A stretch of 64,000 nt of DNA from Sphingomonas quercus (lineage in GTDB: Bacteria; Pseudomonadota; Alphaproteobacteria; Sphingomonadales; Sphingomonadaceae): positions 62,001 through 126,000 of the forward strand of contig NZ_JAHKRT010000001.1 of the NCBI RefSeq assembly GCF_018863195.1. The letters are read 5' to 3'. The translations under genes were made by a program, and so were the position numbers. Below the pieces are notes generated by a model, which saw nothing but the letters and a program-made list of their open reading frames with translations, did no database searches and was not told the origin of the DNA. This document shows, piece after piece, positions 12,618 to 14,399 of this stretch. Every line of letters begins with the position of its first letter. Position 1 is the stretch's first letter.

Positions 12618-13040
12618 ATGAACGCACCGATCATCCGCATCCTGATCGCCGGCCTGGCGGGCGTGGCCTTGGCGACCACGGCCACAGCCGCCGCGCCGCG
12701 CTCCAAGGCCGATGGCGAAGCTGAGCTGGCCAAGCTGCTCGACGGGCGCGTTGCCGGCAAGCCGGTCGACTGTATCAGCCTGCCGTCGACCGGTTCCAGC
12801 CGGATCATCGAGGGCACCGCCATCGTCTACGGCTCCGGGCGGACGCTCTATATCAACCGCCCTCAATCCTCGGCCGACCTGCTCCATGATGACGATATCC
12901 TCGTCACCCGCACCTTCGGCAGCCAGCTGTGCCGGATGGACACGGTAAGGTTGACCAACCGCTTTTCTCGCATCCCCGGCGGGTTCGTGATCCTCGATCG
13001 CTTCGTCCCCTATAAGCGAGCCCAGCCGCGCAGGCGCTGA
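12618..13040 (+). CDS. Secreted hypothetical protein
   Basis: 140 residues. A signal peptide (about 1-25, cut after ATTATAA) is followed by a small domain with two cysteines in VDCISLPS and SQLCRMD that could form a disulfide. Other blocks are IIEGTAIVYGSGRTLYIN and DDDILVTRTFG. Similar short periplasmic proteins occur widely in sphingomonads without known function. It probably forms a two-gene unit with the small gene just upstream. Confidence 0.7.
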   Translation: MNAPIIRILIAGLAGVALATTATAAAPRSKADGEAELAKLLDGRVAGKPVDCISLPSTGSSRIIEGTAIVYGSGRTLYINRPQSSADLLHDDDILVTRTFGSQLCRMDTVRLTNRFSRIPGGFVILDRFVPYKRAQPRRR

Positions 13041-13092: not shown

Positions 13093-14399
13093 ATGGCCCT
13101 CACTGATATCGCCACCCGCACCCCTATGATCATAATTGGCGGCTCGACCCGATCGTCCGCAGCCTGCTCGACACCGATTTCTACAAGCTGCTGATGTTGC
13201 AGATGATCCGCCATCTCCACCCGGACGTGGCGGTGACGTTCGAACTGATCAACCGCTCGCGCTCGGTGCGCCTCGGCGAGGTGATCGACGAGGCCGAGCT
13301 TCGCGCGCAGCTCGATCATGCCCGCACCATCCGCTTCACCAAGAAGGAGCTGATCTGGCTGGCCGGCAACAGCTTCTACGGGCGGCGGCAGATGTTCAGC
13401 CCCGGGTTCATCGCCTGGCTCGCCGACTTCCAGCTGCCGGATTACGAGCTTCGCAAGGAGGACGGGCAATACAGGCTCCGCTTCCACGGCCCGTGGACGC
13501 ACAGCACGATGTGGGAAATCCCCGCGCTCGCCATCGTCAACGAGCTGCGCTCTCGCGCCGCGATGAAGGATCGCGGCCGCTTCGCGCTGGACGTGCTCTA
13601 TGCCCGCGCCAAGGCGAAGCTGTGGGAGAAAGTGGAGCGGCTGCGGCGCCTGCCCGATCTCGTCCTGTCCGATTTCGGCACGCGGCGTCGGCACGGCTTC
13701 CTGTGGCAACGCTGGTGCGTCGAGGCACTGAAGGAGGGGCTGGGCGATCGCTTCATCGGCACATCCAATGTGCTGCTGGCGATGGACGCCGACCTTGAGG
13801 CGATCGGCACCAACGCGCACGAATTGCCGATGGTCGAGGCGGCGCTCGCGCCCGACGACGCCGGCATCGCCGCCGCGCCCTATCGCGTGCTGGAGGATTG
13901 GCGCGATCATTATGGCGGCAACCTCCTCATCGCCCTGCCGGATGCCTTCGGCACCGCCGCCTTCCTCCGCCACTCCCCCGACTGGGTGGCGGACTGGACC
14001 GGCTTCCGCCCGGACAGCGCGCCGCCGATCCCGGGCGGCGAGCAGATCATCCGCTGGTGGCAGGACAAGGGCCGCGATCCGCGCGACAAGCTGCTGATCT
14101 TCTCCGACGGCATGGACGTCGACACGATCGAGGCGACCTGTCGCCATTTCCACGGGCGCGTGCGGCTGAGCTTCGGCTGGGGCACCAACCTCACCAATGA
14201 TTTCCGCGGCTGCGCGCCGTTCGAGACGGCGGGACTCGATCCGATCTCGCTTGTCTGCAAGGTGGTCGCGGCAAATGGCCGGCCGGCGGTGAAGCTTTCC
14301 GACAATCCGGCCAAGGCGACGGGTGATCCCGCCGAGATCGCGCGCTATCTGCGCATCTTCGGCGAGGATGGCCGCCGACCGGCGCCGGTCGCGGTCTGA
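13093..14399 (+). CDS. pncB: Nicotinate phosphoribosyltransferase, start-proximal frameshift
   Basis: PncB condenses nicotinate with PRPP in NAD salvage. The body matches the family along its length: [15 protein letters not shown] at the N-terminus, FELINRS, GNSFYG, then [11 protein letters not shown] and [10 protein letters not shown] near the end. The natural start is ATG 13093 ([10 protein letters not shown], with AAGGG upstream). After 10-11 codons the frame is lost in a C4 run at 13121-13124; one more C would continue into [15 protein letters not shown] and give 435 residues. Without it, the first in-frame ATG is 13194, which removes the conserved TDFYK motif. A sequencing error or a real null mutation are both possible. 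Confidence 0.85.

Follow-up and report, generated by a model that had tools for sequence, protein, structure and literature searches.

The closest described relatives of the gene considered here are the alphaproteobacterial PncB proteins, nicotinate phosphoribosyltransferases that are described by the family models NF003704 and TIGR01514 and have a relative of known structure in 1ybe, which we take to be an Agrobacterium protein. In the window, the whole stretch of 64,000 nucleotides of Sphingomonas quercus DNA that was analysed, a 430-residue frame shares these features: read from 13107 it matches 1ybe along 421 aligned residues (E 1.5e-218), and it carries both NAPRTase Pfam domains, PF17767 and PF04095. 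It passes NF003704 with 502.9 bits (cut-off 379), in agreement with the first-pass annotation, which had called the gene pncB, and TIGR01514 with 292.1 bits (cut-off 269.55). Given the strength of the 1ybe match and an N-terminal peptide common to the window and its nearest relative, L006, the match is not due to chance, and judged by its sequence the gene is pncB, the predicted gene for nicotinate phosphoribosyltransferase. Since the sequence evidence settles the family, structure prediction was unneeded. In a profile search this was the only PF04095 (NAPRTase-family) match in the 3.64 Mb genome, and the contig that carries the window is 648 kb long. The window differs from the described PncB proteins in that the start codon and the body of the gene are out of frame, an arrangement that the other 93 aligned homologues all lack. 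The features at the 5' end of the gene are as follows.

13093..13194, + strand: ORF from the native pncB start, 33 codons, stop TGA 13192-13194 (frame reading; the N-terminus matches homologues)
13121..13124, + strand: C4 run, the candidate lesion, where the window appears to have a net surplus of two bases; the usual sequence in homologues has two C (ACC TAT/TAC), and every row inspected is shorter by two bases (88 distinct segments from 93 homologous loci)
13107..14399, + strand: pncB body frame (nicotinate phosphoribosyltransferase), open after TGA 13104, stop 14397-14399, no usable start before 13194 (frame reading and family models)
13170..13187, + strand: conserved DTDFYK motif, in the body frame and upstream of ATG 13194 (codon listing; conservation in homologues and 1ybe alignment)
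13194..14399, + strand: 401-residue ORF from the first in-frame ATG, without the first nine NAPRTase_N positions (frame reading and family models)

Reading of the sequence places ATG 13093 and the pncB body in different frames, as had been proposed, and the coordinates given then for this ATG and for the C4 run at 13121-13124 are correct. The frame of ATG 13093 opens with a ten-residue peptide that is also the N-terminus of L006, reads PMIIIGG... past the C4 run and ends at TGA 13192-13194. The upstream stop of the body frame is TGA 13104-13106. The claim that the body frame has no start after this stop also holds, as the 29 codons from 13107 to 13193 include no ATG, GTG or TTG; the first start is ATG 13194, which overlaps the stop of the other frame as TGATG. 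The DTDFYK motif precedes this ATG, and a protein begun there would lose TDFYK, as predicted. Thus no single open frame in the window pncB leads from a start codon by way of TDFYK to the C-terminus. The C4 run as such is unremarkable in a window of 68% GC that has 219 runs of four or more C. Just upstream of pncB, at 12618-13040, lies an ORF of 140 residues with a signal-like N-terminus (by eye), which has no Pfam or NCBIfam match and has a relative in L147 with 57.8% identity.

An alignment to other pncB genes, which had been suggested, was made with 94 homologous loci (L003-L096) from outside the genome of the window. Of these, 14 came from searches of genus and family genomes and 80 were others, namely the best 80 of at least 594 relatives, among which 55 are sphingomonads by name; three of the 14 encode the same protein as one of the 80. 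In 93 of the 94 loci a single frame covers the N-terminus without a break (one of these, L013, stops later at a TAG), and the exception, L016, encodes a divergent protein, 62% identical, with another N-terminus. A strict spacing pattern gave one common length in 90 of the 93 loci, the other three being unmatched by the pattern, and all 88 distinct segments printed for the 93 loci consist of uninterrupted codons without extra bases. In its commonest form the homologue DNA has ACC and then a TAT or TAC codon; the window reads ACCCCTAT here, with two extra C. This comparison speaks for a two-base gain and not for the loss of one base. The earlier proposal that one more C would join the frames is formally true, but against the homologues the window has two C too many and is not missing one. 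Plasmid copies of pncB were found in 20 records, of which 19 bear names of alphaproteobacterial genera and one that of Roseateles. In each of the seven copies examined a single frame stays open over 411 codons counted from the motif, and in both annotated plasmid homologues examined the start lies upstream of the position of the later ATG. Plasmid matches without an annotated feature were considered as possible broken pncB genes and rejected: the five examined have intact frames, and the records annotate only one or two features. One locus, L082, from a record titled Bacillus sp. 2B10, has a sphingomonad-type pncB with the same N-terminal peptide as Sphingomonas hankookensis (L065) and Sphingomonas sp. 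Leaf9 (L073); this record is perhaps contaminated or mislabelled.

The body of the gene is well preserved. Among the 93 homologues, 202 columns are near-invariant (97% or more), two of which lie before the stretch taken, and at the 200 covered columns the window shows no deviations. The median homologue likewise has zero deviations, so the body is intact without being distinctive. With four outgroups the window branch has a dN of 0.037-0.042, a dS of 0.233-0.335 and a dN/dS of 0.11-0.18, and the branch of L006 has a dN/dS of 0.17-0.30; these values are whole-branch averages, which cannot closely date a young lesion. A long-dead gene would look different from one with an intact body and a low dN/dS, and this suggests that the lesion is either young or an error.

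Our results also suggest that loss of the enzyme would be bearable. The genome has matches to nadB (627.5 bits, cut-off 452.75), nadA (385.6 bits, cut-off 27) and nadC (282.7 bits, cut-off 198.4). A pncB match was found in 4 of the 10 genus genomes searched and in 13 of the 149 family genomes searched, own genome included in both counts, which leaves 6 and 136, respectively, without a match. From the presence of the three de novo genes and the absence of pncB from most relatives, loss of nicotinate salvage looks tolerable. The first-pass annotation considered a failure of NAD salvage probable; this is possible only for salvage through nicotinate, but the supply of NAD itself should continue, since nadA, nadB and nadC are present. 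There is no clear nicotinamidase to feed PncB among the two PF00857 (isochorismatase-family) proteins of the genome, at C13:41307-41867 and C8:508397-508846; neither passes the nicotinamidase model (cut-off 174 bits), on which one reaches 46.3 bits and the other has no match. Two observations were made on NAD genes in related genomes. One genome of the same genus (G007, listed as 98% complete, 90 contigs) has neither a nadA nor a pncB match, which could be a gap or could reflect a need for NAD precursors. In another genus of the family, the pncB of L013 (G038:C16:41656-45930) has an in-frame TAG 94 codons from its LLDTDFYK start, with the match continuing beyond it; as it reads in the assembly sequence, this is a second, separate copy of pncB that appears broken. 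No internal stop is present in the pncB of L010, a locus of the same genus as L013.

We consider it probable that the window holds an ordinary recent null allele of pncB, and an error of sequencing or assembly, with the true gene intact and PncB made normally, is in our view less likely and rather improbable. The absence of decay or relaxed selection in the body, the position of the lesion in a C run within GC-rich DNA and its uniqueness among the 94 homologous loci all favour an error, and the perfect body counts against the null allele to the extent that a faulty reading of an intact gene would leave it just as perfect. Two extra bases, however, are more readily explained by a single slippage or duplication event than by the usual homopolymer error of one base, and on general knowledge a two-base gain over the homologues would be an unusual error of this kind. 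The assembly also looks good (15 contigs, completeness 99.93, contamination 0.66), and no second frameshift was confirmed in 39 sampled genes, pncB included, a small sample in which one borderline flag remains. These genes come from an end-sensitive scan, which considered unaligned ends of 8 residues or more in the window and in a 200-kb sample of contig C8. In the window, 15 distinct genes with 16 ends gave one flag, pncB itself, the positive control. In the C8 sample, 24 genes with 19 ends gave four flags, three of which were dismissed, two scoring higher in frame and one having an over-long query start over the upstream gene; the fourth is the borderline one, with an off-frame score of 38 vs 29. 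Two other scans were less informative. In the first, antisense shadow ORFs led to many false stops (17 rows in one direction and 13 in the other), and there were three forward frameshift candidates and one reverse; by reading, two of the forward ones lie in one region, the glnK-amtB boundary, with both genes open, and the third falls at a boundary between genes, ahead of an open purH-like start. The second scan is blind to lesions near gene ends and passed pncB itself; one match without stops spanned over 85% of 16 of the 23 genes in the C8 sample and, in the window, of 10 of 24 matches, which are not all distinct genes.

If the lesion is real in the DNA, which is likely when leaky variants are counted with the null allele, some enzyme might still be made in one of several ways. 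By a -1 slip, tRNA-Pro on CCT 13123-13125 would re-pair with CCC 13122-13124, followed by TAT, and a low level of full-length PncB with one extra Pro would result. The sequence permits this re-pairing, and there is precedent, in that part of a review (PMC5009743) describes translational compensation of 'problem' indels, mostly in mitochondria. The site is, however, absent from all 93 homologues compared and so is not a conserved recoding site there. Nor does 13105-13200 fold better than its shuffles (z 0.18, pseudoknot-free folding), as a stimulatory RNA structure would, and no two-tRNA slippery heptamer was seen on reading the sequence. We regard such slippage as very unlikely, and re-initiation at ATG 13194 to yield a functional shorter PncB as a little less likely still. 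The exact overlap of stop and start in TGATG speaks for re-initiation, and the 401-residue ORF passes NF003704 (462.9 vs 379); it falls under the TIGR01514 cut-off (263.9 vs 269.55), and it lacks the first nine positions of the NAPRTase_N domain, which begins at residue 21 of the 430-residue frame. Homologues appear not to start at the later ATG, the finding that might have overturned the first-pass reading, as the conserved frame continues upstream of it in 93 of the 94 loci. The missing segment is presumably equivalent to that which holds Tyr21 of human NAPRT. In the part of PMC9320560 that deals with docking, the grid is centred on active-site residues including Tyr21 of chain B, which argues further against a functional shorter protein. 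Least probable of all is that the insertion created a new low-level recoding site by tRNA-Pro slippage at C-CCU, from which the enzyme would rarely be made and through which the body would be kept under selection.

Under the recent null allele that we favour, an accessory pncB would recently have gained a two-base (CC) insertion about ten codons past its start. Ribosomes starting at 13093 would translate 33 codons and stop at 13192-13194, and the full-length enzyme would arise only through rare slippage. A shortened protein could be made from ATG 13194 by re-initiation; loss of TDFYK should disable the enzyme, and this product would probably be inactive. NAD would be made de novo via nadB, nadA and nadC, and the lost nicotinate salvage would be tolerated. 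Searches for literature on pncB frameshifts or pseudogenes and on Sphingomonas pncB gave nothing on this case, judged by titles. The wider importance of the lesion is little: if real, it adds one to the cases in which a patchily held NAD-salvage gene is lost from a cell able to make NAD de novo. For annotation, proof would be needed before the 401-residue ORF from 13194 is entered as a working PncB.

In comparison with recently frameshifted bacterial genes with an otherwise intact body, the pncB of the window shows a disrupting difference from its homologues in the two extra bases at 13121-13124, and no feature was found that distinguishes it from them. The likeness lies in one small indel with no further decay seen and in a patchy presence of the gene in relatives.
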